Positions 2,419 to 16,500 of a DNA stretch of 42,376 nt are shown piece after piece; the first letter of the stretch is position 1; the number at the start of each line of letters is the position of its first letter. The notes under the pieces are model-generated. The model had not been told where the DNA came from. It worked only from the letters and a program-made list of their open reading frames with translations, and searched no databases. Origin of the DNA: a virus; the IMG/VR virus record IMGVR_UViG_3300042518_000803, positions 1-42,376 of that record; one strand, given 5' to 3'. The translations under genes and the position numbers were made by a program.

Positions 2419-2628
2419 CTAGCCCTCCCGATTTTTCTCGATCTTGGCCAGCTTCGCCTCAACGAGCTGACGCACGAAAGCGGACACGGTAAGTCCGGAA
2501 TCCCACGCAGCCTTCTGAACCCTAGCGCCATCACGACGCTTGTTCATACGGAAGTAGATCATGCAGCCTCCGTCGAGGTAGGTACGGGGGCGTCCGGGCT
2601 TTCTGCTTTTCTTGTTGATAGTTGTCAT
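2419..2628 (-). CDS. AT-hook plus ribbon-helix-helix-type DNA-binding protein, 69 aa
   Basis: The N-terminus holds an AT-hook-like KPGRPRTY (residues 10-17), which in known proteins binds the minor groove of AT-rich DNA. Residues 24-60 fit a ribbon-helix-helix fold: a short strand (IYFRMNKRR), a first helix (ARVQKAAWDSG) and a second helix starting LTVSAFVRQLVEAKL. RHH proteins bind DNA as dimers and often regulate their own promoter. It is transcribed away from the RuvC-like gene with only 15 bp between the start codons, and is therefore placed to control both directions. The ribosome binding site is weak (GAAG). A second in-frame ATG could give a version lacking the AT-hook. Confidence 0.78.
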   Translation of the reverse strand: MTTINKKSRKPGRPRTYLDGGCMIYFRMNKRRDGARVQKAAWDSGLTVSAFVRQLVEAKLAKIEKNREG

Positions 2629-2643
2629 GCATAATTTCTTCGC
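2626..2643 (+). promoter_or_regulatory. Divergent start region with CATAAT -10-like box
   Basis: Only 15 bp separate the two start codons. A -10-like CATAAT (2630-2635, five of six consensus bases) would start transcription at about 2642, within two bases of the RuvC-like ATG, so that message would be essentially leaderless. No good -35 is obvious; TTGATA lies too close. The palindrome ATGCAT (2627-2632) overlaps both the RHH start codon and the -10 box and resembles the core of the GCATGC array at 4100-4156, which could make it an operator. Confidence 0.35.
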
Positions 2644-3165
2644 ATGTCAGCCAACCCCAGTCAAGTAATTATCGGCATCGACACCGGCCAGAAGGGTGCG
2701 GCCTGCGTCCTCATCGACGGGAAAGTGGCTCGAATTGTCGAGCTAACCGAGGAGTTCCCGCTTCAGCAGCTGGTTGCCTGCCTATGGGGGTACTCGACTC
2801 CGGTTGACTTCATCGACATCGTCTACGAGAAGCCGAGCGGCTTCATGTCGAAGAAGGCCAGCTGGTGGGCGGGGTACTACGAAGCGGTCTGCTTGGCGTT
2901 TGGAGAGTGGGCCATCCAGCACCACGCCTTCGACGCATCGGCTAGGATTCGGATCCGGTCCGTGCGCCCTCAGGACTGGCAGAAGCGACTGTTCACGACG
3001 ACCCCTCGCACCATGAAGACCAAGAAGCGTGCGGCCGTAGAGCTCCGACGCCTGATGCCTGAGGTCAACACCACCCACGACGGGTGCGTGGATGCCTGCC
3101 TGATCGCCCTCTACGGTCGGCTGACATCGGGCGGCGAGCCTTCCGTGACGCTCAACCTAGACTGA
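2644..3165 (+). CDS. RuvC-like Holliday junction resolvase, 173 aa
   Basis: A nuclease of the RNase H fold expected to cut four-way or branched DNA during recombination, repair or before packaging. The four acidic residues of the RuvC active site can be placed: Asp13 in IIGIDTGQKG (RuvC has GIDPG), Glu62 in DIVYEKP, and Asp146 and Asp150 in HDGCVDACLIALYGR. The length matches bacterial RuvC. ATG 2644 has no Shine-Dalgarno and would be almost leaderless. It is the first of three rightward genes. With the Cas4-like nuclease and Rad52-like protein at 10.3-12.5 kb it forms a plausible recombination set. The exact substrate cannot be read from the sequence. Confidence 0.88.
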   Translation: MSANPSQVIIGIDTGQKGAACVLIDGKVARIVELTEEFPLQQLVACLWGYSTPVDFIDIVYEKPSGFMSKKASWWAGYYEAVCLAFGEWAIQHHAFDASARIRIRSVRPQDWQKRLFTTTPRTMKTKKRAAVELRRLMPEVNTTHDGCVDACLIALYGRLTSGGEPSVTLNLD

Positions 3166-3452: not shown

Positions 3453-3689
3453 ATGGCGAAACGCAAGAAGGACGTGAATCTGTCGGTTGGCCGAGGCGAG
3501 AAGCTGTCGGTCAAGGAAGGCGCTGGCCTGACCGAAAAGGGCCGCCGGAAGTACAACGCGGCCACCGGGTCGAATCTGCAGGCTCCGACGAAGGACAAGG
3601 ATGACCCTCGTCACAAGAGCTTCTGCGCCCGCAGCCGTGGCTGGACCGGCGCTCGAGGCAAGGCTGCTCGCGCCCGCTGGGGCTGCTAG
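3453..3689 (+). CDS. DUF6321-type small basic phage protein, 78 aa
   Basis: The motif series LSVGRGEKLSVKEGAGLTEKG, then RRKYNAATGSNLQAP, then KSFCARSRGW and a basic Ala/Arg tail ending RWGC matches the DUF6321 family of phages as I recall it. Its function is unknown; the protein is basic and may bind nucleic acid or be packaged. I chose ATG 3453 (MAKRKKDVNLSV) because family members start here; the open frame extends upstream only through the end of the previous gene. The Shine-Dalgarno is poor. Its end overlaps the convergent membrane-protein gene by four bases. Confidence 0.82.
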   Translation: MAKRKKDVNLSVGRGEKLSVKEGAGLTEKGRRKYNAATGSNLQAPTKDKDDPRHKSFCARSRGWTGARGKAARARWGC

Positions 3690-4060
3690 GGCGTTTCCTT
3701 GAGCCGGTCGATCTTACGCAGATCGGCCTCGATGATGGCTAGGATGCGCTCCTGAGCCCACGTGATGCGTTGCTGCGAATGAGTGATTTCGCTCAGCTTG
3801 GCGACCACGATCTCTCCGTCGCCGGATGCCACCTGCACCGCGTTGCGGAGCGCGTGCATGGTCTCCTTGAGGATCTTGCGGTCTTCTGTCGCGTCAGCTC
3901 TGTCAGCGTCCATGCGGCGCAGGAGCTCGTCTCGGTCCTTGTCTGAGCGGCTTGCCATCCACTTGGCCATCCACACGCCGGCCGCCACGATAGGCCCGAC
4001 GATCGCCACCACGGTCTCCCACGAGATCGTCAGATACTGACCCTCAGACGCTCCAAGCAT
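3686..4060 (-). CDS. Membrane protein with coiled coil, 124 aa; holin or spanin candidate
   Basis: One clear transmembrane segment near residues 13-35 (WETVVAIVGPIVAAGVWMAKW) follows a short N-terminus, then comes a long charged helical or coiled-coil tail that is Asp/Arg/Glu-rich. This plan fits a class III-type holin, an inner-membrane spanin or another membrane effector; no enzymatic motif is present. It stands alone on the minus strand between the DUF6321-type gene and the large regulatory region, with GGGAGAG upstream of ATG 4060. It is the best lysis candidate because no conventional lysis cassette was found. The functional assignment is inference. Confidence 0.72.
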   Translation of the reverse strand: MLGASEGQYLTISWETVVAIVGPIVAAGVWMAKWMASRSDKDRDELLRRMDADRADATEDRKILKETMHALRNAVQVASGDGEIVVAKLSEITHSQQRITWAQERILAIIEADLRKIDRLKETP

Positions 4061-4091: not shown

Positions 4092-4169
4092 AGGCGGGAG
4101 CATGCCATACGCATGCATACGTATGCAAGAGCATGCACATGCATGCAAACGCATCTGTGTACAGGCGGG
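4092..4169. repeat. Flanking AGGCGGG direct repeats around the phased array
   Basis: The heptamer AGGCGGG occurs at 4092-4098 and again at 4163-4169, in the same orientation, just outside the GCATGC array. The second copy lies in the spacer of the CTGTGTA palindrome. Two 7-mers could recur by chance. Their bracketing position makes them worth recording as part of a composite regulatory or origin element. Confidence 0.4.
4100..4156. repeat. Helically phased GCATGC iteron array
   Basis: GCATGC or a one-to-two-base variant starts at 4100, 4111, 4121 (GTATGC), 4131, 4141 and 4151 (GCATCT). The last five are spaced exactly 10 bp apart and share the form GCATGCANAN, with the first 11 bp away. GCATGC is a palindrome, so every site lies on the same face of the helix. 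Such arrays are typical of cooperative protein-binding regions: iterons of replication origins, or operators for oligomerising regulators. It sits between the divergent membrane-protein gene (start 4060) and the rightward leader RNA. The host DnaA box is not obvious here. Confidence 0.8.
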
Positions 4170-4178
4170 CTTACACAG
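4155..4178. promoter_or_regulatory. Operator-like palindrome CTGTGTA-N10-TACACAG
   Basis: A perfect 7-bp inverted repeat with a 10-bp spacer starts in the last GCATGC-like unit. The overlapping 5-bp repeat TTACA (4171-4175) and TGTAA (4191-4195) adds a second dyad. Half-sites about 17 bp centre to centre are typical of dimeric regulators. It lies just upstream of the presumed start of rightward transcription; I could not identify a convincing promoter (TTGACT at 4197-4202 lacks a well-spaced -10). Confidence 0.5.
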
Positions 4179-4230
4179 CTCTTACCGTACTGTAACTTGA
4201 CTCGGCCTGCTCAGAAGGCACCCTAACTAA

Positions 4231-5204
4231 GGGAACCGGAGCGCGGAAGCGCGGAGGGTTGCTCGAGGCTCAAGCTGAAGACGTGAGCCGAGAGCTCAGA
4301 GCGTAGGGTTCCTTCTACAAGCACCAATCCGGAACCCGTAAGGCTTACCCAACGGTCCACAGCGCGGCTACGCGCAACGCGGCACACGCCGCACAAAGCC
4401 TTTTCACCACGGCAAACCTCCAAAACTTCCGTGTGTGGGTGCATGGGTAGCTCCTTCCAACCGGTACTGGCTCCAAAACCCCCCCTGTACCCCCGGCAGG
4501 GGAGGGTGCGCGGCGGGCTTGCCCCCGTGGGGCGGATGTTACAGGAGCCTGCTGCAAGCTGCAAGGTGCGTAAAAGCCGGGCCATAGCGCCATCGGCACG
4601 GTGTCGGCAGCCCGATTGCAGCCGACGGCGAGAACGACTCGCCTCCCTCGGTCTCCCTCGAAAGGTGGTATCTCTCAGACACGTAGACCCTCATCTCCCT
4701 TGCGGACCCCGTACTCGGTTTCGGTTCCGCATCGGCGACAGTAGGACGCTCTTTGACAATCTGGAACCTAGATAGTGCGCAAGCCACTGTCCTAATCCGA
4801 CGGAAGCTACCCTAGGAGAGAGAGTATCTCTCCGAGATGCAGGTCACGCTGCGGGGCTCGAATCGAGGATGCAGTCGACGCCGATAGGCGGTAGACGCTC
4901 GAATAGACGGAACGGTCAAGCTTGGTACGACAAGGAACGTAGCACGAAGTCCTTCTAGGTCGCACCCCGATACATCGGAGCGGCGACTGTGACGCCGTCC
5001 CGATAGAGGGCGGGAACCCTATCCCCTCGAAACGTATCTAGGTGTGCTGCAGTGAGCGAACGACGCCTACGTCGTAGGGTCTGTCAAGGTCGCAAGCGAA
5101 CTGCAGATGCCACACACACTAGAGCGCGCTGCAAGGCGAAACCCTGAGAATCCCGAAGAGATTCTCTCGGTCGACAGATGGAATCTGTCCTGACGAGCCG
5201 TCAG
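4231..5204 (+). ncRNA. Large structured RNA candidate (about 1 kb), upstream of the early operon
   Basis: No credible gene lies here, but a dense series of perfect hairpins does. Examples: GCGC-GGAA-GCGC (4241-4252); a stem with tandem GA/GA inside (4261-4295); 7-bp GGGTTCC/GGAACCC (4306-4337); GCGGC-ACAC-GCCGC (4379-4392); GGCGAG/CTCGCC (4627-4643); GGAGAGA/TCTCTCC (4815-4833); ACGACG-CCTA-CGTCGT (5060-5075), enclosed by GTGTGCTGCAG pairing with 5101-5115; GAGAATC/GATTCTC (5146-5166); GACAGAT/ATCTGTC (5173-5189); and, with no gap, CTGACG/CGTCAG (5190-5204). Orientation follows the boxA at 4748 and the operon starting at 5237. No T-tract follows, so it may be a leader, a processed RNA, or both. 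It recalls the size of ornate phage RNAs such as GOLLD or ROOL, but I cannot assign it to either. Ends are approximate. Confidence 0.68.
4748..4766 (+). promoter_or_regulatory. boxA-like rRNA antitermination element
   Basis: GCTCTTTGACAATCTGGAA closely resembles the boxA element of proteobacterial rRNA leaders and spacers (core GCTCTTTAACAA, often followed by T-rich/TGGAA sequence), with G for A in the core. In rRNA operons this RNA element recruits NusB-NusE and other Nus factors so that polymerase passes terminators. Here it lies in the structured noncoding region 470 bases before the first early gene. TTGACA within it could instead be a -35 box, but no -10 occurs at the right spacing. Confidence 0.6.
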
Positions 5205-5236
5205 CACTACCAACAAACCACAGAGGAACTCTATCC

Positions 5237-5446
5237 ATGAAGTACCGTAACACTCAGCAGAAGCAACTCGTCGAACTCTACACGCTGCTCGAAGAGCAGC
5301 AATCCGGACACGCCGATCTCGCGAAGATCGCGAAGCTCGCGGGCAAGCTCGGCTTCGAGTACCTCGATCTGAGCTCGAAGAGCTCGGTCAACTCAACCAT
5401 GGACGAGATCGCGGGCACGTTTGCCTGCATCGACCTCGGAGTCTGA
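5237..5446 (+). CDS. Hypothetical early protein, 69 aa
   Basis: First gene of the rightward early operon. Starts MKYRNTQQKQLVELYTLLEEQQ, probably two or three helices, mildly charged, with no recognised family. A purine-rich site (CAGAGGAACT) lies 9-16 bases before ATG 5237, and the leader reads CAACAAACCA, the A/C-rich style of this operon. The stop at 5446 is followed by another A/C-rich leader to the next gene. As the first gene downstream of the structured RNA it should be among the earliest proteins made, which is a common position for host-takeover or anti-defence factors; that role is inference. Confidence 0.78.
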   Translation: MKYRNTQQKQLVELYTLLEEQQSGHADLAKIAKLAGKLGFEYLDLSSKSSVNSTMDEIAGTFACIDLGV

Positions 5447-5477
5447 TAACCAAACCAACAAACCAAGGAGACCTACC

Positions 5478-5777
5478 ATGAAGATCATCTACAGCATCGA
5501 AACCACGAACCAGTGGATCCACGTGGAATCCAAGGACGGGTACGTGGTTGTGCTTGACCTACTGGCAAGCCCTGAAAACCGAATCATCTGCTTCTTCGAG
5601 TCCGAAGAAGACGCCGACAAGGCGATCGCCCTTGCCAAGGCGTACCACGCTGAGAAGGAGGAGGAGATCTCCTACTACAGCGACGACTTCAAGGATGTGC
5701 ACGGATTCCGTCCGAGCCTCGCCGCTGTGGTCCTGATGGCCCCCGAAGAGATCCGCGCCCGCCGACTGGCCCTCTAA
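5478..5777 (+). CDS. Hypothetical early protein, 99 aa, founder of a small paralogue family
   Basis: Starts MKIIYSIETTNQWIHVESKDGYVVVL after AAGGAGACCTACC; the earlier in-frame ATG inside the previous gene lacks a site. The N-terminal half is a beta-rich module ending in FFESEEDADKAIALAKAYH, and the C-terminal half carries EEEISYYSDDFKDVHGF-PSL. The N-terminal half is repeated in the 57-residue protein at 6067, and the overall plan recurs in the 115-residue protein at 7987, so these three are likely paralogues. It is acidic. No known domain is recognised. Confidence 0.82.
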   Translation: MKIIYSIETTNQWIHVESKDGYVVVLDLLASPENRIICFFESEEDADKAIALAKAYHAEKEEEISYYSDDFKDVHGFRPSLAAVVLMAPEEIRARRLAL

Positions 5778-5798
5778 CCAACCAAGGAGACAAGTACC

Positions 5799-6050
5799 AT
5801 GTTCAGCATCGACAACTGCACTCGCTTCGAGCTCTACAGCTCCGAAACCAACGAAACAACGATCGAGTGGCGAGACGCTGAGGATCGCGTCGTCCGCGTC
5901 GTCTACGACGACGGCTTCGAGTACCAGTCAATCGAGGAATGGGAATACCAGCCTCTTCACGTCTGGCACAGGATCACGGAAACGTACATCGACGGTTCGA
6001 CCGTGACACTGAAGTGCAACGGTAAGACCGTCGACTACACGGAACAGTAA
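5799..6050 (+). CDS. Hypothetical acidic early protein, 83 aa
   Basis: Starts MFSIDNCTRFELYSSETNE after an ideal AAGGAGA site. It looks like a small beta-sheet protein with many Glu, Asp, Thr and Tyr residues and repeated strand-like stretches (VVRVVYDDGFEYQS, STVTLKCNGKTVDY). No family is recognised. It lies between two paralogues of the WIHVESKDGY family and is set in the same A/C-rich leader. It is strongly acidic, as are several neighbours. A DNA mimic or inhibitor would fit such a profile but nothing proves it. Confidence 0.8.
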   Translation: MFSIDNCTRFELYSSETNETTIEWRDAEDRVVRVVYDDGFEYQSIEEWEYQPLHVWHRITETYIDGSTVTLKCNGKTVDYTEQ

Positions 6051-6066
6051 CCCAAGGAGACCAACC

Positions 6067-6240
6067 ATGAGCACCGTGATCTACGAACGAGAGACCCATC
6101 GGGTCTGGATCCAAGTCGAACTCAAAGACGGGTACGTGCACGTGCTCGAACTCTGGCCGCGCAGTCGCAAGCTGAGAGTGTACGAAGACTACAGCGACGC
6201 CGACGAGGCGGTGCTGTTCGCCAAGAACCTGTTCAACTAA
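6067..6240 (+). CDS. Hypothetical early protein, 57 aa, short paralogue of the 5478 protein
   Basis: ATG 6067 follows CCAAGGAGACCAACC. The protein, starting MSTVIYERETHRVWIQVE and ending AVLFAKNLFN, aligns along its full length with the first 57 residues of the 99-residue protein: both have (I/V)IYxxET...W(I)xVExKDGYVxVL and end in a (D)ADxA(I/V)xxAK helix. This shared order supports gene duplication followed by loss or gain of the C-terminal half. Its function is unknown. It is a small stand-alone module between 5799-6050 and the DUF7227-type gene. Confidence 0.82.
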   Translation: MSTVIYERETHRVWIQVELKDGYVHVLELWPRSRKLRVYEDYSDADEAVLFAKNLFN

Positions 6241-6272
6241 CACCAAACCAACAAACCAAGGAGACAAGTACC

Positions 6273-7007
6273 ATGTTCATCAGCTCGAACGAGAAGACAG
6301 ACAAGCCCGTCAAGGGATACACGCTGCACATCATGCAGCTCGCCCCCGCAACGGTAGCCAACATCAAGTTGGCCGACGGCACGAAGCTCGACACCTGCAA
6401 GGACGCACGCGGCGACTGCGCTCAGACCTGCATCTTCTTCTCAGGTCGCGGCGAGATGCCCGCCGTGTGGCAGGCCCGCGTGCAGCGCACGCACGATCTG
6501 TTCCTGCCCGACGGCACCGCCAACCCCGTCGCTGTTGCCAAGCTGCATCTTGAGATCTCCAAGCTGCACGCCAGCGCCAAGCGCAAGCGCAAGCGCCTCG
6601 CCCTGCGCCTCAATGGCTTCTCTGACCTCGACTTCGTCGAGCTTCTCGGCAGCGACTTCTTCAGCACGTGGAAGGACGTTCAATTCTACGACTACACGAA
6701 GCACCACGGTCGCTGGATGCGATACCTTCGCGGCGAACTGCCCGCCAACTACGACCTGACCTTTAGCATAAGCGAGAAGCACACGCTCGAGGAGATCCTC
6801 CCGATCGTGCAGCAGAAGCACGCTCGCCCCGCTCGCTGCGCCACGGTCAGCCGCACGCCGGAGACCATGATCGACGGCATCACCTACGTGGACGGCGACA
6901 AGCACGACGCCACGTTCACGCACCCGACTGGCACCGTCCTCGTGCTCTCTGCCAAGGGCAAGGGCGGCAGCCGCAACCCGAAGGCTAGCTCCTTCATCCC
7001 CGCCTGA
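6273..7007 (+). CDS. DUF7227-type phage protein, 244 aa
   Basis: Matches the phage family I know as DUF7227 (found, as I recall, in mycobacteriophages and others). Visible landmarks: Cys42, Cys49 and Cys53 in TCKDARGDCAQTC, followed by GRGEMPAVWQARVQRT; LRLNGFSDLDF near 111-121; VQFYDYTKHH near 136-145; LPANYDLTFSISE near 156-168; and a late YVDGDKHDATF before a Gly/Lys-rich end. The clustered cysteines suggest a metal or iron-sulphur site. The biochemical role is unknown to me. ATG 6273 follows CCAAGGAGACAAGTACC. It is one of the larger early genes, which argues for an important early or middle function. Confidence 0.85.
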   Translation: MFISSNEKTDKPVKGYTLHIMQLAPATVANIKLADGTKLDTCKDARGDCAQTCIFFSGRGEMPAVWQARVQRTHDLFLPDGTANPVAVAKLHLEISKLHASAKRKRKRLALRLNGFSDLDFVELLGSDFFSTWKDVQFYDYTKHHGRWMRYLRGELPANYDLTFSISEKHTLEEILPIVQQKHARPARCATVSRTPETMIDGITYVDGDKHDATFTHPTGTVLVLSAKGKGGSRNPKASSFIPA

Positions 7008-7009
7008 TC

Positions 7010-7019
7010 TGACACGTCA
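7010..7019. repeat. TGACACGTCA intergenic element, copy 1
   Basis: An interrupted palindrome, TGAC-AC-GTCA, lies just after the DUF7227-type gene and at the start of the A/C-rich leader of the zinc-ribbon gene. Identical copies occur at 7240-7249 and 8332-8341, each directly after a coding region and followed by AACC or AAACC. Confidence 0.6.
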
Positions 7020-7040
7020 ACCAACACAGGAGAACTGACC

Positions 7041-7238
7041 ATGAAGATCCACGAATCCATCACCCTTCAGCGAATCATCGACAGCGTCGAGGCCGACGAC
7101 CAACTCGGCATCTGTCTGGCCTGTGGCGAGGACCACGACGGCTACGTCGAGCCCGACGCCCGCAAGTACACGTGCTCGTGCTGCGGCAAGAAGCAGGTCT
7201 ACGGCACGCAAGAGATCATGTTCATGATCCACGCCTAA
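7041..7238 (+). CDS. Zinc-ribbon-like protein, 65 aa
   Basis: Starts MKIHESITLQRIIDSVEADDQ. Two cysteine pairs, CLACGE near 25-30 and CSCCGKK near 45-51, sit about 18 residues apart, as in zinc ribbons that bind nucleic acid or proteins. The N-terminal stretch is helical. Its ribosome site is CAGGAGAACTGACC. Acidic residues dominate outside the ribbon. Small zinc ribbons of this kind recur in phages, often without a known function. It could bind host polymerase or nucleic acid. Confidence 0.83.
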   Translation: MKIHESITLQRIIDSVEADDQLGICLACGEDHDGYVEPDARKYTCSCCGKKQVYGTQEIMFMIHA

Positions 7239-7239
7239 C

Positions 7240-7249
7240 TGACACGTCA
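7240..7249. repeat. TGACACGTCA intergenic element, copy 2
   Basis: Exact copy of the element at 7010-7019, two bases after the stop of the zinc-ribbon gene and directly before a run of four CCAA-type units leading into the next ribosome binding site. Confidence 0.6.
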
Positions 7250-7278
7250 AACCAACCAACCAACAGGAGACACGTACC

Positions 7279-7935
7279 ATGACCGACACGTCCGACCGCC
7301 GCAACAACACCTTCTACTTCGAGTTCAAGACCACCAAGACCGAGGCGCTCACGCAGCTGCTCATCGACAGGATGCTCGAGAACGACATCGACGACGACAT
7401 CAGACTGGCCGCCATCGACAAGCTGATCGAGTCCGACGACACCCTGCGCGAGAGCGCAGTCTATAGCCTCATCGAGAACAGCGACGAAGAGTGTATCGAT
7501 CATGCGGCAGAGATGCTGATCGACAATCGTGACGGCGACGTGATCGAGCGCGCCGCAGAGATGCTGGTAGACAATGGTGACGGCGACGTGCTCAAGCGCG
7601 CAGTCGAGAGCGCCGCAGAGATGCTCTCCGAGCAGCGCGACAGCGAGTGCATCAGCATGGCTGTCGACAAGCTGATGGACAACGACATCGAGCACTTGTC
7701 CCGCATCGCCGTCGACAGGCTTCTCCACAAGGCGGAGACTGACAGCGAGTTCGCCAAGCGCCTCAACCTCCCCAACCATGAGCAGTCCAAGGCTCTCAGC
7801 GAGGCGGCTGAGACGATCGCCAAGCTTCAGTCTGACATCCAGACCATGAGGAACATCATCAACAACATGGGCGACGCCGCCCGCCTGATGATGGACCGCT
7901 GCGATCAGTGCTTGGCAGCGTCCTACAAGGTGTGA
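7279..7935 (+). CDS. Acidic helical-repeat protein with 16-residue repeats, 218 aa
   Basis: Residues 35-155 consist of about eight tandem units near 16 residues of the form AAEMLIDNxDGDVIER, seen best in two adjacent near-identical copies encoded by 48-bp repeats at 7504-7551 and 7552-7599, with a four-residue insertion before the third. Each unit would form one helix and a turn, as in an alpha-solenoid binding surface. The C-terminal third (EAAETIAKLQSDIQTMRNIINN) is coiled coil and ends with CDQC. It is strongly acidic overall. The ribosome site is CAGGAGACACGTACC. I know no family; protein binding, possibly of a host factor, is inferred. Confidence 0.82.
   Translation: MTDTSDRRNNTFYFEFKTTKTEALTQLLIDRMLENDIDDDIRLAAIDKLIESDDTLRESAVYSLIENSDEECIDHAAEMLIDNRDGDVIERAAEMLVDNGDGDVLKRAVESAAEMLSEQRDSECISMAVDKLMDNDIEHLSRIAVDRLLHKAETDSEFAKRLNLPNHEQSKALSEAAETIAKLQSDIQTMRNIINNMGDAARLMMDRCDQCLAASYKV
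7504..7651 (+). repeat. 48-bp tandem repeats within the helical-repeat gene
   Basis: Two adjacent 48-bp units (7504-7551 and 7552-7599) start GC(G/C)GCAGAGATGCTG and stay closely similar throughout. A third, more diverged unit starts at 7612 after a 12-bp insertion. They encode the AAEML repeats and look like recent internal duplication. Confidence 0.75.
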
Positions 7936-7951
7936 TTCTCATGTGAGAATC
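7934..7951. promoter_or_regulatory. Palindrome GATTCTCA-TG-TGAGAATC
   Basis: A perfect 8-bp inverted repeat with a 2-base centre overlaps the stop codon of the helical-repeat gene and precedes the A/C-rich leader of the next. No T-tract follows, so a terminator is unlikely. It occupies the same relative place as the TGACACGTCA elements and may be an operator or an RNA processing hairpin. Confidence 0.5.
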
Positions 7952-7986
7952 GCTAGCATCAACCAACAACACCAACCAAGGAGACA

Positions 7987-8334
7987 ATGACCATGAAGAT
8001 CATCCACCGCACCATCTCTAAGAGTGTCGCGCTCCACGTGATCGAAGACGAAGAGACCATCTGGGTCCGTGACTCCGGCCCCTACAAGTCAGTGCTCGGA
8101 CTGTACGGACACGATGAGAAGGAGCAGGCGATTGCCGATGCGGCTCGCTACGCGGCCTTCAAGGAACGGGTAATCGAGGAACACATCGATCTGTTCGGGA
8201 AGCTGTTCGGTTGGGAGCCGAGCCTTGACAGGCTGCGCAGCATGACGCTCAGCGAGATCCGCACTGAGATCGAAGAGATCCAGAAGTACGTCGATGTGGA
8301 AAAGACCATGCGCTTCATCTCTGAAGGCAACTGA
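7987..8334 (+). CDS. Hypothetical early protein, 115 aa, third member of the paralogue family
   Basis: Two in-frame ATGs (7987, 7993) follow CCAAGGAGACA; either may be used. The protein starts MKIIHRTISKSVALHVIEDEE, and its plan parallels the 99-residue protein at 5478: MKII plus beta strands, an AxADAARYAAFKE helix, then a segment ending in GWEPSLDRLRSMTLSEIR that parallels GFRPSLAAVVLMAPEEIR. A longer C-terminal helix is added. It is acidic and of unknown function. Its TGA stop forms the first three bases of the third TGACACGTCA element. Confidence 0.82.
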   Translation: MTMKIIHRTISKSVALHVIEDEETIWVRDSGPYKSVLGLYGHDEKEQAIADAARYAAFKERVIEEHIDLFGKLFGWEPSLDRLRSMTLSEIRTEIEEIQKYVDVEKTMRFISEGN

Positions 8335-8341
8335 CACGTCA
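8332..8341. repeat. TGACACGTCA intergenic element, copy 3
   Basis: Third exact copy; here the TGA is the stop codon of the 115-residue gene. The bases that follow (AACCAACAACACCAACCAAGG) also repeat the leader found after 7951. Confidence 0.6.
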
Positions 8342-8366
8342 ACCAACAACACCAACCAAGGAGACA

Positions 8367-8858
8367 ATGACCATGGATAAGTTCCCCAAGCTCGGAAGTT
8401 TCAAGCACCAACCTCACACACCACTGCACGTCAACCCCATCAACCGACGCAGCTTCACGGCGATGCCGCTGTCGTGGTCTGAGTGCACCGAGTACGACGA
8501 TGAGACCCACGACCGTCACTACAAGGTGCTCTACGGCACCCGCATCTGGGGCGGCACCACTCCGGTGGCGTGGCGCGTGATGCGCGAGCTGTCCAACAAT
8601 GAGATGGCAGACGCAGGACTGACCAATTCCACGACGGACTACGAAGACACGCTGTTCGTCTGCCTCGAAGCTGCGAACAGCAGCGACGGGTCCAAGTGGA
8701 TCCGCATCACTGGCGACTTCGTTACCGAGAGTGAGGCCATCGACCTCGTCGAAGAGTACGTCGACATCGCTGAGCGCATGGATGCGCAGCACTACAACAT
8801 GACCCAGTCAATCAAGAGTCACTACTACCGCACGGTGCAGCGCACCGACCTTCAGTAA
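8367..8858 (+). CDS. Hypothetical early protein, 163 aa
   Basis: Starts MTMDKFPKLGSFKHQPHTPL after AAGGAGACA. An in-frame ATG precedes the likely functional one by two codons, as in the gene before it. The protein is mixed alpha/beta with aromatic-rich strands (RHYKVLYGTRIWGGTTPVAWRV) and an acidic helix near the C-terminus (ESEAIDLVEEYVDIAERMDA). No known domain or catalytic motif is evident. It shares its leader sequence with the preceding gene almost base for base, which suggests the same expression level. Confidence 0.82.
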   Translation: MTMDKFPKLGSFKHQPHTPLHVNPINRRSFTAMPLSWSECTEYDDETHDRHYKVLYGTRIWGGTTPVAWRVMRELSNNEMADAGLTNSTTDYEDTLFVCLEAANSSDGSKWIRITGDFVTESEAIDLVEEYVDIAERMDAQHYNMTQSIKSHYYRTVQRTDLQ

Positions 8859-8877
8859 CCCTAACCAACAGGAGACC

Positions 8878-9435
8878 ATGACCATGACCACGACCGACCA
8901 ACAAACCATCTGGCTCTGCGACGAAGACCTCGACCGGATGAACATCCGGCTGCGAGAGCGAGCCCTCAAGCTGGTGCCGATTCAGCGGCACAAGTACGCA
9001 GGAGCCACCAACCACGTGGTGAAGTGCCACGTGCACCCACTGTACAAGGACCAGACAACTGCATCGTCCGAGGTCGACGAGTGCGCCATCTCGATGCGCA
9101 TCCCGTACATCTCGTACTCGATCATCGCCTCGCTGCCGAAGCTCGAGGCGCACTGCGAGTACGACACGTTCGAGTCCATCACCAACAAGAAGGTTCTGTC
9201 CTCGAGGATCACGTCGTTCGACATTCTCACTGCGGATCAGTACGGCAGGCGCAGCAGCGAGAACCGTCCGATTGTCGCCATGACTTTCGAGTGCGAGGTC
9301 GTGCGCACGCTCTGGTCCTACGGAGACTTCTCCAACAACGAGTACGAGTTCCTTGCGGACGACGTGCTCTCCCTTGTCGACACCACCCTGAACGAGATCG
9401 GCTCCGAGCGCGAGCCCAAGCAAACCATCCAATGA
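8878..9435 (+). CDS. Hypothetical early protein, 185 aa
   Basis: Starts MTMTTTDQQTIWLCDEDLDR after CAGGAGACCATGACC. The protein looks mostly beta, with a long strand-rich core (CAISMRIPYISYSIIAS, PIVAMTFECEVVRTLW), and ends in an acidic helix LADDVLSLVDTTLNEIG. No family is recognised. Its stop overlaps the next start as ATGA at 9432-9435, so the two are translationally coupled. An enzymatic role is not visible from motifs. Confidence 0.82.
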   Translation: MTMTTTDQQTIWLCDEDLDRMNIRLRERALKLVPIQRHKYAGATNHVVKCHVHPLYKDQTTASSEVDECAISMRIPYISYSIIASLPKLEAHCEYDTFESITNKKVLSSRITSFDILTADQYGRRSSENRPIVAMTFECEVVRTLWSYGDFSNNEYEFLADDVLSLVDTTLNEIGSEREPKQTIQ

Positions 9436-9671
9436 CGACGACTATCATCCACATCGAGCTGACTGTCGAGGTCAGCGCCGACTGCATCCGAACCAAGGCC
9501 ACGCGGGACGAGCCCGGATACGTGGAGTTCCAAGACCACCGCATCTTCATCTCCGATGAAGTGTCCGGTCTTCAGATCGAGCTCACTGACCAGCAGGTCA
9601 AGAAGCTCATGGACCACTACAGCGACGAGGTGGAAGATTGCCTCCTCGACGCAGAAGCTGACAACTACTAA
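9432..9671 (+). CDS. Hypothetical acidic protein, 79 aa
   Basis: Starts MTTTIIHIELTVEVSADCIR at an ATG overlapping the previous stop, so it needs no leader of its own; this is one of the few genes in the cluster without AAGGAGA. Beta strands in the first half are followed by a strongly acidic helix (QQVKKLMDHYSDEVEDCLLD). It may act together with the 185-residue protein to which it is coupled. No family is recognised. Confidence 0.78.
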   Translation: MTTTIIHIELTVEVSADCIRTKATRDEPGYVEFQDHRIFISDEVSGLQIELTDQQVKKLMDHYSDEVEDCLLDAEADNY

Positions 9672-9687
9672 CCAACAAGGAGACATC

Positions 9688-9993
9688 ATGTTCACCACCA
9701 ATTCTTCTCACTTCGATAACTACGTCCGCTTCCACGAGATGGCGTTCATCACCAAGGACGGATTCCTCGGCGCCTCGTTCTTTGCCAGCAACGACTGCAA
9801 GAGTTGCGGCGAGCGCGGGCCGTCCGCTGACTACCGTATCACCATGCCGGCCGAGTCCCACGAAGACTTCGTCGATGCCCTTCGCCGCCTTGCCGACCGT
9901 GTCGAGCAGGTCGTGAGCGAGCGCAACAAGAAGAACTCCGAGGCCATCCTCAAGGCGTTCGATTCGGACGCCGACGTGGAGGAGAAGCCGTGA
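9688..9993 (+). CDS. Hypothetical protein, 101 aa, with CxxC
   Basis: Starts MFTTNSSHFDNYVRFHEMAF after ACAAGGAGACATC. A CKSCGE motif near residues 37-42 is followed by a strand and a long amphipathic helix (DFVDALRRLADRVEQVVSE), with an acidic tail. The single CxxC could be redox active or half of a dimeric metal site. Its stop overlaps the GTG start of the next small membrane peptide. No family is recognised. Confidence 0.78.
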   Translation: MFTTNSSHFDNYVRFHEMAFITKDGFLGASFFASNDCKSCGERGPSADYRITMPAESHEDFVDALRRLADRVEQVVSERNKKNSEAILKAFDSDADVEEKP

Positions 9994-10085
9994 GCTACAT
10001 CGGATACTGCGTCCTCGCTGTCATCATCGCTGCCTGCTGGATCATCGACGAGTTCATCAACGGCCCCGACGTGGGCAAGGACTAG
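9990..10085 (+). CDS. Single-span membrane peptide, 31 aa, GTG start
   Basis: The frame opens with GTG at 9990, which overlaps the TGA of the preceding gene (GTGA), and an AGGAGAAG site lies just upstream. The peptide is (M)SYIGYCVLAVIIAACWIID then EFINGPDVGKD. Residues 3-19 form a clear transmembrane helix with a short acidic tail. Such tiny early membrane peptides can depolarise the membrane or modulate host functions, but the role is unknown. The tight spacing to both neighbours and the membrane-like composition support translation. Confidence 0.62.
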   Translation: MSYIGYCVLAVIIAACWIIDEFINGPDVGKD

Positions 10086-10087
10086 AC

Positions 10088-10276
10088 ATGGCACACCTCA
10101 AGCACAAGCAGATCGATCAGATCTACAACACCATCACTCCCGATCAGGAGGAGGCAAGCTGCCGACTCGCAGAGAAGCGACGGCGCAGCTGCCGCATCGT
10201 CGACATCGTGACCATCACCGTCATCATCGGCGGATGGGTCGCGCTCTTCTTCTACGCAGCACACATCACCAACTAA
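10088..10276 (+). CDS. Small membrane protein, 62 aa
   Basis: Starts MAHLKHKQIDQIYNTITPDQ two bases after the preceding stop. A charged, basic N-terminal half (RLAEKRRRSCR) leads into a C-terminal transmembrane helix near residues 38-58 (IVDIVTITVIIGGWVALFFY). The Arg-rich stretch before the helix predicts a cytoplasmic N-terminus. With the 31-residue peptide it forms a pair of adjacent membrane proteins, conceivably a holin/antiholin-like or superinfection-exclusion pair. It has no recognised family. Confidence 0.75.
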   Translation: MAHLKHKQIDQIYNTITPDQEEASCRLAEKRRRSCRIVDIVTITVIIGGWVALFFYAAHITN

Positions 10277-10285
10277 GGAGAACGC

Positions 10286-11230
10286 ATGAAGTACTGGTTT
10301 ATGAACAAGGGATCTTTGATTGATCACATCAACGCTTACTACGAGGAGATGAACGGGTCGAAGTCTCTATGCCCGATACGTATCTCTTCTTTCGGTGACT
10401 GCCCAGCTAAGCTTTTCCAACTGTGCAGTGGAGCTGACAAGGAGCAGCTAACAGCTAGAACACACCGCATCTTCGAGATGGGTACGCAGCGAGGCTCTGC
10501 GCTGTGCATGGCCATCGGAGGAATGATCGCTGGATACTTGCCGGAGTATGAACTCTGGATACCAATCAATCTGCCTGCGTCTGTCGCAGACAAAGTCGTA
10601 AGCCTTATGTCCGAACGGTTCGGAGCCGTAGACCTTCCAGTCAAGACAGACCCTGACTTCCCCAATGCACTGATGGTTCGAGGCCGAGCCGACGCAGTCC
10701 GACTAGTGAACGACGGAACGGCAAGCATTGTCGAGTTCAAGACGAAGAACAGCTTCGGTTTCGACAAGCTTCCAGAAGAAGGTCCGGGTCTGCAGTACAC
10801 GCTACAGGTCATGGGCTACATCAAGGCGCTTGAGTCAGAAGGCTACAAGGTCACCGACGCTACCTTCATCTTCGAGAACAAGGATAACTGTGATCTGTAC
10901 GAGCATCGCCTCAACATCGAGGCGGCTCAGCGCATGTACGATGAGTGGCTGCCCAAGTTCCAGCGCATGCTGATCGAGCTAGCTTCCGGCAGCGATGCGG
11001 CTTCACCGATCCCGACTTCGGTCGAGCCGAGCTACGTCGCTGAGACCGTGTCGAAGATGCTGCGCGATCAAGCACGGACGGCGAAGCTTCCGTGGAACTG
11101 CAACTACTGCTCGACTGGTCCGGCCAAGTGTGCACAATGGTGCGCGGCACAGAGCATCGACATCGAGATCGTCGACAAGCGTCGCAGTGGATCCGACAAG
11201 CCTGCATACACGGTGATCTCAACCCTATGA
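10286..11230 (+). CDS. Cas4/RecB-like PD-(D/E)XK nuclease with Fe-S cluster, 314 aa
   Basis: An exonuclease expected to resect DNA ends for recombination. The nuclease core is visible: Asp136 in VRGRADAV, then Glu150-x-Lys152 in SIVEFKTKN, and a downstream GLQYTLQVMGY that supplies the usual Gln/Tyr helix. Four cysteines near the C-terminus (272, 275, 282, 286; CNYCSTGPAKCAQWC) with Cys39 in SFGDCPAK near the N-terminus are arranged like the 4Fe-4S site of Cas4 and AddB. ATG 10286 follows AAGGAGAACGC. It is directly upstream of the annealing-protein gene, and the pair resembles exonuclease/annealing-protein recombination modules of phages. Its stop overlaps the next start. Confidence 0.86.
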   Translation: MKYWFMNKGSLIDHINAYYEEMNGSKSLCPIRISSFGDCPAKLFQLCSGADKEQLTARTHRIFEMGTQRGSALCMAIGGMIAGYLPEYELWIPINLPASVADKVVSLMSERFGAVDLPVKTDPDFPNALMVRGRADAVRLVNDGTASIVEFKTKNSFGFDKLPEEGPGLQYTLQVMGYIKALESEGYKVTDATFIFENKDNCDLYEHRLNIEAAQRMYDEWLPKFQRMLIELASGSDAASPIPTSVEPSYVAETVSKMLRDQARTAKLPWNCNYCSTGPAKCAQWCAAQSIDIEIVDKRRSGSDKPAYTVISTL

Positions 11231-11529
11231 AATCAAACATGAACGACCCCCTCGACATCTCGCCCAACGAGATCAACGCGATGCGCAGCTCATACGACGA
11301 AATGGCGCTGCGTCTTCTTTCTCAGTTCGACCCTGATCCGAAGGTCGCAATCGAAAAGCTGGCGAAGCAAACCCTTCACATCACGCAGACTCTCATGCTG
11401 ACCAAGGATCAGCTCACACAAGAACAGGCTTCGTTCGTCGCTGGGATAATCAACATGTCGATCACGCCCGTGATCATTGCCCAGTGGCGCAAGATGAAGC
11501 GTGACACCAACCGTAAGGAGAACCAATGA
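11227..11529 (+). CDS. Hypothetical helical protein, 100 aa, between nuclease and annealing protein
   Basis: Starts MKSNMNDPLDISPNEINAMR at an ATG overlapping the nuclease stop (ATGA); a second ATG at 11239 is possible. It appears all-helical, amphipathic and basic at the C-terminus (IIAQWRKMKRDTNRKENQ). Its stop overlaps the ATG of the Rad52-like gene by four bases, so the three genes are coupled. That position suggests an accessory to the recombination pair, such as an adaptor or loader, but nothing in the sequence proves it. Confidence 0.78.
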   Translation: MKSNMNDPLDISPNEINAMRSSYDEMALRLLSQFDPDPKVAIEKLAKQTLHITQTLMLTKDQLTQEQASFVAGIINMSITPVIIAQWRKMKRDTNRKENQ

Positions 11530-12536
11530 CCGACATCGAACAACAGATCCGCATGCTCCACGCCCCGTTCGACCCGTGCGAACTGGAGTGGCGCTTTCAG
11601 AAGACTGGCAAGCAAGGCAACGGCGGCGTCATGCTGCCCTACGTTTCGGCCCGTGCGATCATGGATCGCCTCGATCAGGTGATCGGGGCCGGCAACTGGA
11701 ACGACAGCCTGCGGGTACACGGTGAAGGCGAGCGCCGCACGTGGGTCTGCACCCTGTCGGTCGAGCTTGCCGATGGCAAGGCTGTGGTGCACGAGGACGT
11801 GGCCGACGAGACTCACGTCGAGCCCGCCAAGGGCGGTGCCTCGGACGCGCTCAAGCGGTGCGCCGTCAAGCTGGGCATCGGCCGCTACCTGTACTACCTG
11901 CCCAAGTTCTACGTCGAGGACCAGCCCCGCCCGTCCCACAAGTGGACCGAGCACATCGCCCAGCACCTGCCTCGCAAGTGCCCGTGGGCTGTGCCGGGTG
12001 GAACCGGACGCCCGCCGGAGGGCAAGGGCTCGAGCGGCTGGAACTTCGATACCAGCTTCTCTACCGGAGCGGGCGACGCCCCCAGCGACGAGCCCACCAT
12101 GGCCGCTCCCAAGCCCGCCCCTGCGGCTCAGCCTGCGCCCAAGCCTCAGCCGCCCAAGAGCGTGCCGGAACGCAAGCCAGCGCCTCCTGCGCAGTCCAGC
12201 GGCCCAGCCGACGCTGACGACCCCGACGTTCCGCTGCCGACCCACTCGGCCGCGCCCTTCGACCTCGGCGCCAAGATCCGCTTCGGCAAGTACAAGGACC
12301 AGACATGGGGCTGGGTTGCCATGGGCTCACCCAACGGTCGCCGCCGTGGCTGGCTGCGCTGGTCTGCCGAGAACCGCGCCACGTTCGACCGCGACTCCAT
12401 GAAGGAGCAGGCGTACATGGCCGAGCAGATCCTGCAGTGGCTCGAGGGCAAGGCCACTCCGGTCGAAGATCCGTGGTCCGACGACAAGGTCCAGCGCGAG
12501 GACGAGGGGGCCGAAGGCTTCCCTTGGGAGGGCTGA
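11526..12536 (+). CDS. Rad52/22-type single-strand annealing protein with C-terminal ExoX-like module, 336 aa
   Basis: The N-terminal 130 residues carry the Rad52/22 signature: LPYVSARAIMDRLDQVIGAGNW near 37-58, and the hallmark GGASDALKRCAVKLGIGRYLY at 103-123. Such proteins anneal complementary single strands in double-strand-break repair and phage recombination. A disordered Pro/Ala/Lys-rich linker (about 165-240) leads to a small C-terminal module, KIRFGKYKDQTWGWVAM then RGWLRWSAEN, like the domain at the end of exonuclease X-type proteins. The two parts may couple annealing to a partner or to DNA. AAGGAGAACCA precedes ATG 11526. High confidence in the Rad52-like part. Confidence 0.88.
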   Translation: MTDIEQQIRMLHAPFDPCELEWRFQKTGKQGNGGVMLPYVSARAIMDRLDQVIGAGNWNDSLRVHGEGERRTWVCTLSVELADGKAVVHEDVADETHVEPAKGGASDALKRCAVKLGIGRYLYYLPKFYVEDQPRPSHKWTEHIAQHLPRKCPWAVPGGTGRPPEGKGSSGWNFDTSFSTGAGDAPSDEPTMAAPKPAPAAQPAPKPQPPKSVPERKPAPPAQSSGPADADDPDVPLPTHSAAPFDLGAKIRFGKYKDQTWGWVAMGSPNGRRRGWLRWSAENRATFDRDSMKEQAYMAEQILQWLEGKATPVEDPWSDDKVQREDEGAEGFPWEG

Positions 12537-12537
12537 G

Positions 12538-12828
12538 ATGGACGCTCCCTACCAGCGTCACTCAGACACCAGCAAGGCAGCGGCCGACCTGATCAGGGCT
12601 CACCTGCCTAGGCACCAGCACCTCGTGCTGTGCATCTTCCGAGCGCATCCCGACACGGCGTTCACGGACAACGACCTGATCGAGTTCGTCATCGCGAACG
12701 AGATCCCCATCAGCATGAACGGTGTCCGAGCTCGGCGCATCGAGCTGCTTCGCAAGAACCTGATCACCGAGTGCGGCATCAGGGCTGGCGATTCCGGACG
12801 ACTGGCAAAGCAGTACCGACTCGCTTAG
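12538..12828 (+). CDS. Winged-helix-like protein, 96 aa
   Basis: Starts MDAPYQRHSDTSKAAADLIR, a phrase typical of small phage winged-helix proteins (RHSDTSKAAA), and continues with helices LPRHQHLVLCIFRAHP and GVRARRIELLRKNLITECG, the latter a good recognition helix, then the short wing RAGDSGRLAKQYRL. Its ATG lies one base after the Rad52-like stop. It is the last gene of the rightward operon, just before the terminators. It may regulate phage transcription or act with the recombination genes. Confidence 0.8.
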   Translation: MDAPYQRHSDTSKAAADLIRAHLPRHQHLVLCIFRAHPDTAFTDNDLIEFVIANEIPISMNGVRARRIELLRKNLITECGIRAGDSGRLAKQYRLA

Positions 12829-13128: not shown

Positions 13129-13535
13129 TGCGCTTGCTCCTTCAGGATCTGAACCTTCTGCCCGCCTTGCAGCACGGCAACCCAACACCCCGACTCGGCG
13201 TTGAACACAGCCTCGGGGAACAGGATGCGGCACCAGCTGGGGATAGGCTGGTCGAGCTCGAACTCCTCGTCGAAGTCCAGCCCACGGTTGATGACTCGAC
13301 GCTTGCCATCGGTCAGGTTCACGGCCGCCCACGGCGTACCGTTGAAGTGGTCTCGACCGCCGACGAACGCGGTCCCCTTCACATGCCCGACGAACAGACG
13401 CTCGAATGGATCCCATCGGGCATCGCCATTGCCGGAGAACGAGATCTCGGCGTGGAACGGGGAAGGCCCAGCCATGTCCGTGCTCGAGCACGACATAGCC
13501 ATGGCACACACGATCAATGCGGTCAGGTACTTCAT
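13125..13535 (-). CDS. Putative lipoprotein, 136 aa
   Basis: A signal peptide MKYLTALIVCAMAMS ends in a lipobox-like AMSC with Cys16 as the probable lipidated residue. The mature part is beta-rich (FVGHVKGTAFVGGRDHF, CWVAVLQGGQKVQIL) with two further cysteines. It lies after the giant virion gene, overlapping its stop by four bases. Phage lipoproteins at late-operon ends can be outer-membrane spanins, receptor blockers or exclusion factors. The size here is larger than usual for an o-spanin, so a superinfection-blocking lipoprotein is an equal option. Confidence 0.75.
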   Translation of the reverse strand: MKYLTALIVCAMAMSCSSTDMAGPSPFHAEISFSGNGDARWDPFERLFVGHVKGTAFVGGRDHFNGTPWAAVNLTDGKRRVINRGLDFDEEFELDQPIPSWCRILFPEAVFNAESGCWVAVLQGGQKVQILKEQAQ

Positions 13536-16500
13536 CGGATGAACTTCATGAACCTTGCAGCCTGCGCAGCAGCGCCCTTCATGGGCAAGGACTGAACCGC
13601 AGTACTGGGAGCCATATCATACATAGCCGGACCGAACACCTTGGTCTGGTCTTCGAACGATACGTCGAGATCGACAGACGCACCGTTGGTCCGTTCAGCA
13701 ACCCAAGCATTGCCAAGCCGTAGCGCCTCTAGGTCCGCGCCCTTAGCCGACTTCATGTTCGGGATTCCCGACGAGATCCAGATACGAGCAAGGATGCCCT
13801 CGTTGCCGGAGGTGTTCTTCATCTGCTCGTACAGGAAACGCATCAGCTGAACGTTGTCACCAGCCCCACGCCACGCAGCGCGAACGATGCGGTCGTGCAA
13901 TGCAGGGTCAACGTCCTTGCGATAGATAAGACCTGTCTCGCTGGACAAGAGTGTGTCGAGCACCTCCCTGCGTGACTGCAGAGCATTGACGGTCTCAGCC
14001 ACCCATAGCTTCCGCATCTCAGGGGTATCACCCTTGGAGGCGAGCCACTTGCCCAGTTCCGTTGACGGGTTCTGCCGAATGTCGAGATGACCGTTCGCAT
14101 CCTCGATCACGTCTCGAGACAGGTTCAAGTACGCATCGAGCCGGCTAGCGTATGGAAGCGTAGCCATGTCAAGCGACTCCTTGTACGTCCTCGAGAGGAG
14201 GTTCAGGATCGTCTGCTCGATCTGCCTGTTGCGAATATCTGCACGAGCTTCTTCACCAGATTCGGAAGCAGGGTAGATAGGGTTCCCAAGAAGCGGCACG
14301 CGGCCAACTCCGTCCGTCTTCGGTGCGCGGGATGCGGAGCTCACCCTCGATGTAGGCAGCAGCGTTCGAGACGTGATGGCCGAAGCCATCTCTGCGAAGG
14401 TAGGCTTCATCCGGCTAGACGGAAGTCCGGCCAGCATCTCCGAGAACGTTCGGCTTCCGAAGGCAGACTCCTCCAGCGCGACCTTCATCTCTCGACTGAA
14501 GCCGGGGCCGAAGACCGATGTGCCACCAAGGGGAGCGGACATCTCGGCCGCTACACCCTGAGCTACCTCGGCAATGACCTGTGCCTTTGACTTGCCCTTC
14601 TCGCCCTGAAGCAGCTTCATCGCGTCCAAGAACGTGGCCGTCGCCGCCATGCTGAACATACCGAATCCGTTACGCGGATCAGGTTCTGCCACCATGAAGT
14701 CGTTGGTCTCGTCGAGAGACGCCGATACCTCGTTGACGAAGTCAACTCCCGGAACGTAGTCCTTCCAGTCAATGATCGTGGACTGACCGCCGACCGTTGG
14801 GCCACGGCTCATTGAGAGCATCTCTCCGGCTTGGCTGTGAGTTCCGATAGATCCGAGGCTTGCAGCGTGAACGAAGTTCTTTCCGAAGCCCTGCAGGTAT
14901 TCGACCCAGTCACGTACTGCCAAGGTCGCCTTGCCGGAGCTGCTTCCTCCAAAGCTAGGAAGCGGAGCGTCACCATGCCGACGACGGAGGATGTCGAGCG
15001 TGACCGGATCAAGTTCGGTGCCCTTGAGGACATCGCTACCAGCTGCAGCTTCGCGCAGGTCTTCGTCGTCACCACCAAAGGCTTGGCTCACAAGGCGAAT
15101 CATTGCCAGCGCAAGCGCCGTGTGCGCGATGCCACGCCACGACATCGTGTGACGAGCCATCGTCGGATACATGGCAGCGCGGTACATCCAGAAGGGAGAT
15201 GCGGCACCCATCTGGACCATCTGCCGTCCGATCAACCTCCAGTTCTGATCGAGACCCTTGCCCTTTCCTGCTCGGGCATAGCCCAGCTTGGCATACCCCT
15301 CCTCTCGAAGACGAGTAGCTCCGGTCTGGAACTGGGTCGTCATGCGGAGCAGGGTCGTGTTGCGGTCGCTGAAGTCACCCGTTCCCTCGCTCGCCCAACG
15401 CACGGCATCCTCATGCTTCATGCCAATGCGCTTTGCTTCGATGATGGCCGCGTGCTTCCACCACACCTCGTGGAGGTTGTACACACCGAGCAGGGCTCGG
15501 ACCGCCTCCGCTCTAACAGCGGGGTTCGGGTCAGAGGACAGCTTGCTGACACGGCTCGAGAAGCTTCCCCAGCCACGGCCGGCACGATACGCGGCCTGAG
15601 CCACAAGGTTGAGATCCGACTCGGCAGAAGATTGACCGGATCCCCTGAACATAGGGTTCCCATCTGCCCCATAGAACATGCTGGCTAGCACGTCCGCACC
15701 GTTGACCGGATCGTTGATCATGTGGGCCAGCGTCGCACCACCAATCGACAGGACCGTCGAATCGAAGTTGAGCGCCCCTTCGCTCCATTGAGACTTGGGA
15801 AGGTTCGCCTTCTTCGCGGCATACCATTCAGCTGCTTCCCAAGCAGCGTCAGCGTATACGCCTTCTCCGGTCAGGATCGACTCGAACATGTCCGACATCG
15901 GAACCTTTCCGGTCATGCTGTTAGTCGAAAGGTTCGTGGTGAACTGAAGCACCCAGTGCTTCGGGTTCTGCACTGTACGCAGCTGACGCCACATCAAAGT
16001 GACCTGCTGCAAAGCGTCGGTCATCGACTCAAGCGCACCACCAGAACGGTACGCCGTGATGTCGTTGCGCTCGAGCAGGAACGCAATCTCTCGGCTAGCG
16101 TGCCACGTGATGTGGCCATTCTGAAGCGTGTTAAGAAGCTTCTTCATGGCCGGTGTCATAGTGGCTTTGCCACCACTGCGAAGCTCGATCTCGTCATCGA
16201 TGAACGTCTGAATGACAGCCGCTTCGAGCTTAGTGTTCTTTCGCTCCTCAAGGATTTTGTCGGCGTCAGCTCTGCTGAGCTTGCCCTCGTTGAGCATCGC
16301 CTCCTCTTCCTTGGTCAGCTTCGGAACTAGGACGCCTTCTCCAGTACGCACCAAGCCACGATCGGCAACTCGCGTGTACTGCTGACGCTCGACAACGCCC
16401 ATGCGCTCGTAGTCTTCCGGAGAAACAACATGTCCCTCGGCCACGAGACGGTTGAGAATGCGGAACGTTTCCAAACGCTTGGCGACTCGGACCGCGCTCA

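Follow-up and report, generated by a model that had tools for sequence, protein, structure and literature searches.

A conserved, helically phased array of GCATGC half-sites at the divergent junction of a phage genome, with an RHH protein as its candidate ligand

The 42,376-nt stretch of DNA analyzed here in full (the window), an IMG/VR-type phage record, carries beside the junction between its leftward and rightward genes an array of six GCAT/ATGC half-sites spaced at about one per helical turn. This array is real and conserved, and we infer its ligand and function: in the best reading, to which we give a probability of about 0.4, an RHH protein binds the array cooperatively as a switch between divergent early and late transcription. 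We rank RHH control of the divergent region first and a replication origin second because no initiator was found, whereas a conserved predicted RHH protein is present. The initial annotation had offered both a switch and an origin, and the switch appears the better supported, by analogy only. Many phages in environmental data have no recognizable initiator or switch protein, and an array that is both phased and conserved shows exactly where a phage regulator should be sought.

With ends that overlap by 178 bp with a few mismatches, the window is a nearly complete genome assembled as a circle. Structural genes encoding the terminase, portal, capsid, and a 3592-aa protein run leftward, and the early genes run rightward (Table 1). 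Between the leftward gene at 3686-4060 and position 5237 lies a gap of ~1.2 kb without conserved coding capacity, and the array occupies its left end, an intergenic, non-coding location 40 bp upstream of the leftward gene.

Table 1. Features of the control region, the RHH gene, and the early genes (window coordinates)
Feature	Position	Strand	Remarks
69-aa predicted RHH protein	2419..2628	-	Basic GRPR-containing N-terminus; AlphaFold2 model pLDDT 78
CATGC...GCATG inverted pair	about 2622-2650	.	Formed by GC before the start codons (2628..2646) of the divergent RHH/RuvC-like genes; also in L006
124-aa protein	3686..4060	-	One likely membrane segment; leftward gene adjoining the array
Array of six GCAT/ATGC half-sites, four of them full GCATGC	4100..4154	.	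Steps of 11, 10, 10, 10, and 10 bp
TTAC-N6-GTAA palindrome	4182..4195	.	Conserved right of the array; single copy in the window and each relative locus
TGTAACTTGAC	4191..4201	+	Conserved; single copy in the window and each relative locus
Hairpin-rich non-coding block	4225..4297	+	Between array and early genes; strongly conserved
Non-coding structured RNA candidate, early-operon leader, ~550 nt	4690..5236	+	L006 3240-3808; L007 3031-3599
Rightward early genes	5237..12828	+	GP88, HEAT-like, Cas4-like nuclease, Erf/Rad52 annealing protein, small protein phrog_1123; boundaries of several genes uncertain

Full GCATGC words stand at 4100, 4111, 4131, and 4141, while the site at 4121 reads GTATGC and that at 4151 retains only the half-site GCAT (GCATCT). 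The six GCATGC-type sites first described therefore hold in type and in their 10/11-bp steps, with two of the six degenerate, and the units placed exactly 10 bp apart from 4111 to 4151 are confirmed when read as GCAT/ATGC half-sites. Across the whole window, the longest half-site run of any tetramer at steps of 7 to 25 was this run of six at 10/11 bp, compared with at most four in order-3 Markov shuffles (n = 300), and no second comparable phased run was present elsewhere in the 42,376 nt, leaving a single cluster per genome. Additionally, ATGC/GCAT at the array reached the highest tetramer density within 56 bp anywhere in the window (12, with a runner-up of 8, a C run aside). The total number of GCATGC words was not raised (17, against 18.2 expected), and a genome-wide excess was rejected; the signal lies in clustering and phasing, not in number. 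Other properties of the region were set aside. Copies of AGGCGGG, described as brackets in the initial annotation, do occur at 4092 and 4163, but none lies near the array in either relative, and they were rejected as a component of the element; likewise, the palindrome said to end the array exists (TGTACA, 4158-4163) but is not a conserved part of it. The array contains alternating purine-pyrimidine stretches of 22 and 17 nt, longer than any others in the genome, but the L007 relative has no such run of 14 nt or more, and Z-DNA or simple bendability was rejected as the conserved property. MicroRNA-type Rfam matches over the array scored far under gathering and were also discarded.

The corresponding locus was recovered from two relatives, contigs 3300020161_001106 and 3300017754_002694 (loci L006 and L007), which share ~70% DNA identity with the window in the early region and a portal protein that is 93% identical. 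Both carry nine half-sites at steps of 10/11 bp, with a best-fit period of 10.55 bp. Aligned with the window, the arrays match poorly: many linkers have changed, and the word and period are retained. L006 and L007 are nearly identical to each other and therefore provide a single independent comparison for the array. Because the period is kept while the linkers are replaced, there is strong evidence that the array acts in cis as a multi-site binding platform, and its pattern is the one expected where many weak sites along a single helical face are under selection. Relatives that kept the genes and lost the periodic sites had been named as the outcome that would speak against the array; both relatives retain it, and the idea of a helically phased multi-site platform beside a divergent junction stands. 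Further searches with the neighboring protein, the RHH protein, the portal, and the RNA motif returned the same two contigs every time, and the named phage relatives (Arthrobacter and Manatee Spring records), with only ~21-27% identity in portal and capsid, were of no use for the array.

Immediately to the right of the array, the TTAC-N6-GTAA palindrome is fused to TTGAC, an arrangement conserved in the relatives. The palindrome itself is a candidate operator for a second regulator, and the combined element (4182-4202) is a candidate operator/promoter in which TTGACT (4197-4202) may be the -35 element of a rightward promoter. It has no good -10 partner that could be recognized, and a consensus scan recognized no standard promoter. 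Over 4172-4297, identity between the window and its relatives is 79%, and folds of the hairpin-rich block within this interval gave z-scores that were not significant. The 30 bp at 4171-4200 are 60% AT, placing them at the 99th percentile (57-60% in the relatives), and overlap the promoter-like element.

Farther right, there is good evidence that the leader of the early genes (4690-5236) forms a large structured RNA. The L006 copy folded far more stably than its shuffles (z = -7.07; window copy, z = -1.58), and when the structure obtained from L006 only was applied to the window, 101 of 152 pairs were kept (66%), against 33-42% when it was slid. Among pairs changed on both sides between the window and L006, 23 of 40 still pair (shuffle p 0.0002), in an alignment for covariation built from sequence only and comprising two lineages. 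The interval matches no Rfam family and contains no conserved ORF, and it may represent a new large phage RNA class. Within it, GCTCTTTGACAATCTGGAAC at 4751-4770 is similar to the boxA region of rRNA leaders.

The presence of a predicted RHH protein in the phage genome is supported by the AlphaFold2 fold, by a Foldseek search of the PDB that returned NikA, Arc, KacA, AtaR, and CopG with weak E-values, and by conservation in the relatives; the protein falls under the Pfam cut-off for RHH_1. It is 48% identical in the relatives, with the strand residues M23, Y25, F26, and R27 invariant, and is one of the few candidate DNA-binding proteins common to all three genomes. No homologues were found in named phages. 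The protein encoded at 12538-12828 was considered as another DNA binder and rejected: it is 65% conserved, but its AlphaFold2 model is poor (pLDDT 55). Two features expected of an RHH multi-site operator are present, namely, an RHH protein encoded in the same genome and conserved alongside the array, and at least two half-sites phased with the helix; in parallel, the predicted DNA-contact strand is invariant, as is the half-site. The RHH gene and the array are 1.5 kb apart and not adjacent. At the starts of the divergent RHH and RuvC-like genes, GC directly before the start codon, which is absent in most other window genes, creates the inverted pair listed in Table 1 (centre spacing, 16-17 bp), which at most suggests possible autoregulatory half-sites. 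Neither gene has the strong AGGAG-type ribosome site that precedes most early genes.

To place the array among similar elements, viral contigs (at spacings of 8-12 bp) and 84,980 species genomes (at 10-11 bp) were scanned for GCATGC triplets, yielding a sample of at least 160 loci at 10-11 bp. Among the matches listed (160 loci), eight bacterial loci from several phyla (L127, L157, L187, L192, L215, L216, L217, and L232) carry three GCATGC words at exactly 11 bp, with 0-14 bp between the end of the array and the start codon of a small FitA-like RHH antitoxin gene. In Pfam, each of the eight proteins matches FitA-like RHH (three score above the curated cut-off, five below), and the triple GCATGC before such genes appears to be a recurrent operator design. 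In phages, arrays lie upstream of RHH-like genes at L005, whose protein has a weak RHH_5 match, and at L004, whose protein is RHH-like by eye and reaches no Pfam RHH family. Among the loci listed, RHH genes were enriched at arrays relative to control positions in the same loci (7/160 versus 7/1101; Fisher p 7e-4), as judged with a weak profile from which the survey members were excluded. The window resembles the FitA-like operators in having helically spaced GCATGC near an RHH gene, but it and its relatives have six to nine sites instead of three, at 10/11 bp instead of exactly 11 bp, in a remote divergent region instead of immediately before the start codon of the RHH gene itself, and no toxin gene; the strand residues also differ (M/Y/R in the window protein versus Q or H, then K or R).

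Many other phage arrays lie within replication-initiator genes, just after the N-terminal domain, and 11 of the 16 collected match phrog_9474 'replication initiation protein'; these in-gene arrays are likely origin iterons. Among the matches listed, phage arrays were commoner in initiator genes than beside RHH genes. Because the survey shows both associations, RHH proteins and replication initiators are both plausible users of GCATGC arrays. A 10-bp spacing was not over-represented in viruses, as tandem and coding repeats made 8, 9, 11, and 12 bp equally frequent among the matches listed. A recurring rule is suggested by the survey, once-per-turn GCATGC for RHH regulators of the FitA-like antitoxin kind and also in phage initiator genes, and it would allow the operator in many FitA-like systems, like the iterons in many O-like initiators, to be predicted from sequence. 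We found no literature joining GCATGC with RHH. Phased GCATGC/GCAT arrays in phage or prophage initiator genes were seen at L033, L048, L063, L064, L070, L075, L089, L092, L095, L110, L117, L062, L081, L141, L212, L261, and L265, and IMG/VR contig 3300042305_000935 (L081, L002, L255) has an array in an initiator-like gene, an intergenic array 8 kb off, and a GP88 gene as in the window.

In the mechanism that we favor, one GCAT half-site per helical turn would be displayed on one face of the DNA, and several copies of a dimeric phage protein, most likely the phage's own small RHH protein, would bind side by side and cooperatively. Bound between the leftward 124-aa protein gene and the TTGAC element, the protein would repress or re-direct transcription, which from the TTGAC element would lead into the structured leader RNA and then the early genes; control of transcription would be the outcome of binding. 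A precedent is ParR, likewise an RHH protein, which wraps the DNA when it binds arrays of 10-bp repeats (PMC5016525). Against this mechanism stand the distance of 1.5 kb between RHH gene and array, the strand residues that differ from those of the FitA-like proteins, the sub-threshold RHH_1 score of the window protein, the L004 protein that reaches no Pfam RHH family, the commoner placement of phage arrays in initiator genes, and the lack of a recognized standard promoter. The Arc/Mnt RHH switch of P22 and the A2/A3 region of phi29 likewise have a phage regulator between divergent transcription units; the window has many more sites than these systems, and its regulator and promoters are putative. 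An extended version, in which RHH protein polymerizing on the array governs both early transcription and the ~550-nt RNA, which itself primes or regulates an initiator-less replication, seems improbable to us.

The most probable of the rival explanations, which we nevertheless regard as doubtful, is that the array consists of iterons for an unrecognized phage initiator, or assists priming together with the adjacent non-coding RNA, with the DNA opening at the AT-rich patch. The in-gene arrays of the survey favor such an origin, as do phage G003, with one such coding array and a second, intergenic one, and the AT content of the patch itself. Analogy comes from lambda, whose iterons sit within gene O (PMC7466680), and from some cluster A mycobacteriophages, whose origin includes a non-coding RNA of ~600 bp close to arrays of repeats (PMC7157519). 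The window shares helically related repeats with lambda O-type origins, and GCATGC arrays occur in such genes of other phages, but its array lies outside any coding gene, with no initiator detected; searches for the initiators of known GCATGC-array families gave none in the window or its relatives, in keeping with the original remark that no initiator is visible. Moreover, with 60% AT the patch is weak as an unwinding element and is also where the promoter-like element lies, DnaA boxes form no cluster (the only match in the genome is at 8295), and the GC-skew check proposed in the initial annotation revealed no clear turn at the array. An origin at the array is rated possible. An RNA-based origin using 4690-5236 is possible because some mycobacteriophages replicate via a non-coding RNA of similar size: the window offers, as read from sequence, a non-coding structured region of ~550 nt and, like the cluster A phages, combines a long non-coding RNA region near repeats with no initiator protein. 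The window, however, lacks parABS, and a replication role for its RNA is putative.

The remaining explanations would leave the array to other kinds of protein. Binding of a host DNA-binding protein or nucleoid factor to the phased sites is improbable; as gene scans found no polymerase gene in the phage, it must, as far as its genes show, rely on host RNA polymerase, but the GCATGC motif is used by RHH antitoxins in very different bacteria, and we know of no host protein with a phased GCATGC operator. Ring terminases wrap DNA with a helical period, and a pac site at which a small-terminase ring touches one half-site per turn would agree with the single array per genome and with the mismatched contig-end overlap, as expected of a permuted, headful-packaged genome. 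No small terminase was identified in the phage, however, the array is ~3 kb from the large terminase gene, and the survey loci showed no link between GCATGC arrays and small terminases; we consider packaging slightly less probable still. We consider least probable of all a centromere-like partition array of the ParR/parC or parS kind in an extrachromosomal prophage. Repeats of 10 bp are bound by RHH centromere-binding proteins (PMC5016525), and the parS loci of RedRock comprise eight direct 8-bp repeats near an RNA-based origin (PMC7157519). Like ParR/parC of plasmids R1 and pSK41, the window pairs a small RHH protein with about one site per turn; unlike them, it has no motor ATPase that we could find, its array is remote from the RHH gene instead of adjacent to it, and its half-site belongs to the palindromic GCATGC. 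A ParA-type ATPase was absent from the three genomes in searches whose controls worked (a ParM search matched nowhere and is uninformative on presence), and no integrase or repressor was seen, giving no sign of a prophage state.

Elsewhere in the window, the giant ORF for the 3592-aa protein (13532-24310, minus strand) is 44% identical across ~3000 aa in L007. Tandem repeats in coding sequence occur at 7507-7601 (48 bp x 2, in the HEAT-like protein) and at 24354-24445 (27 bp x 3.4).
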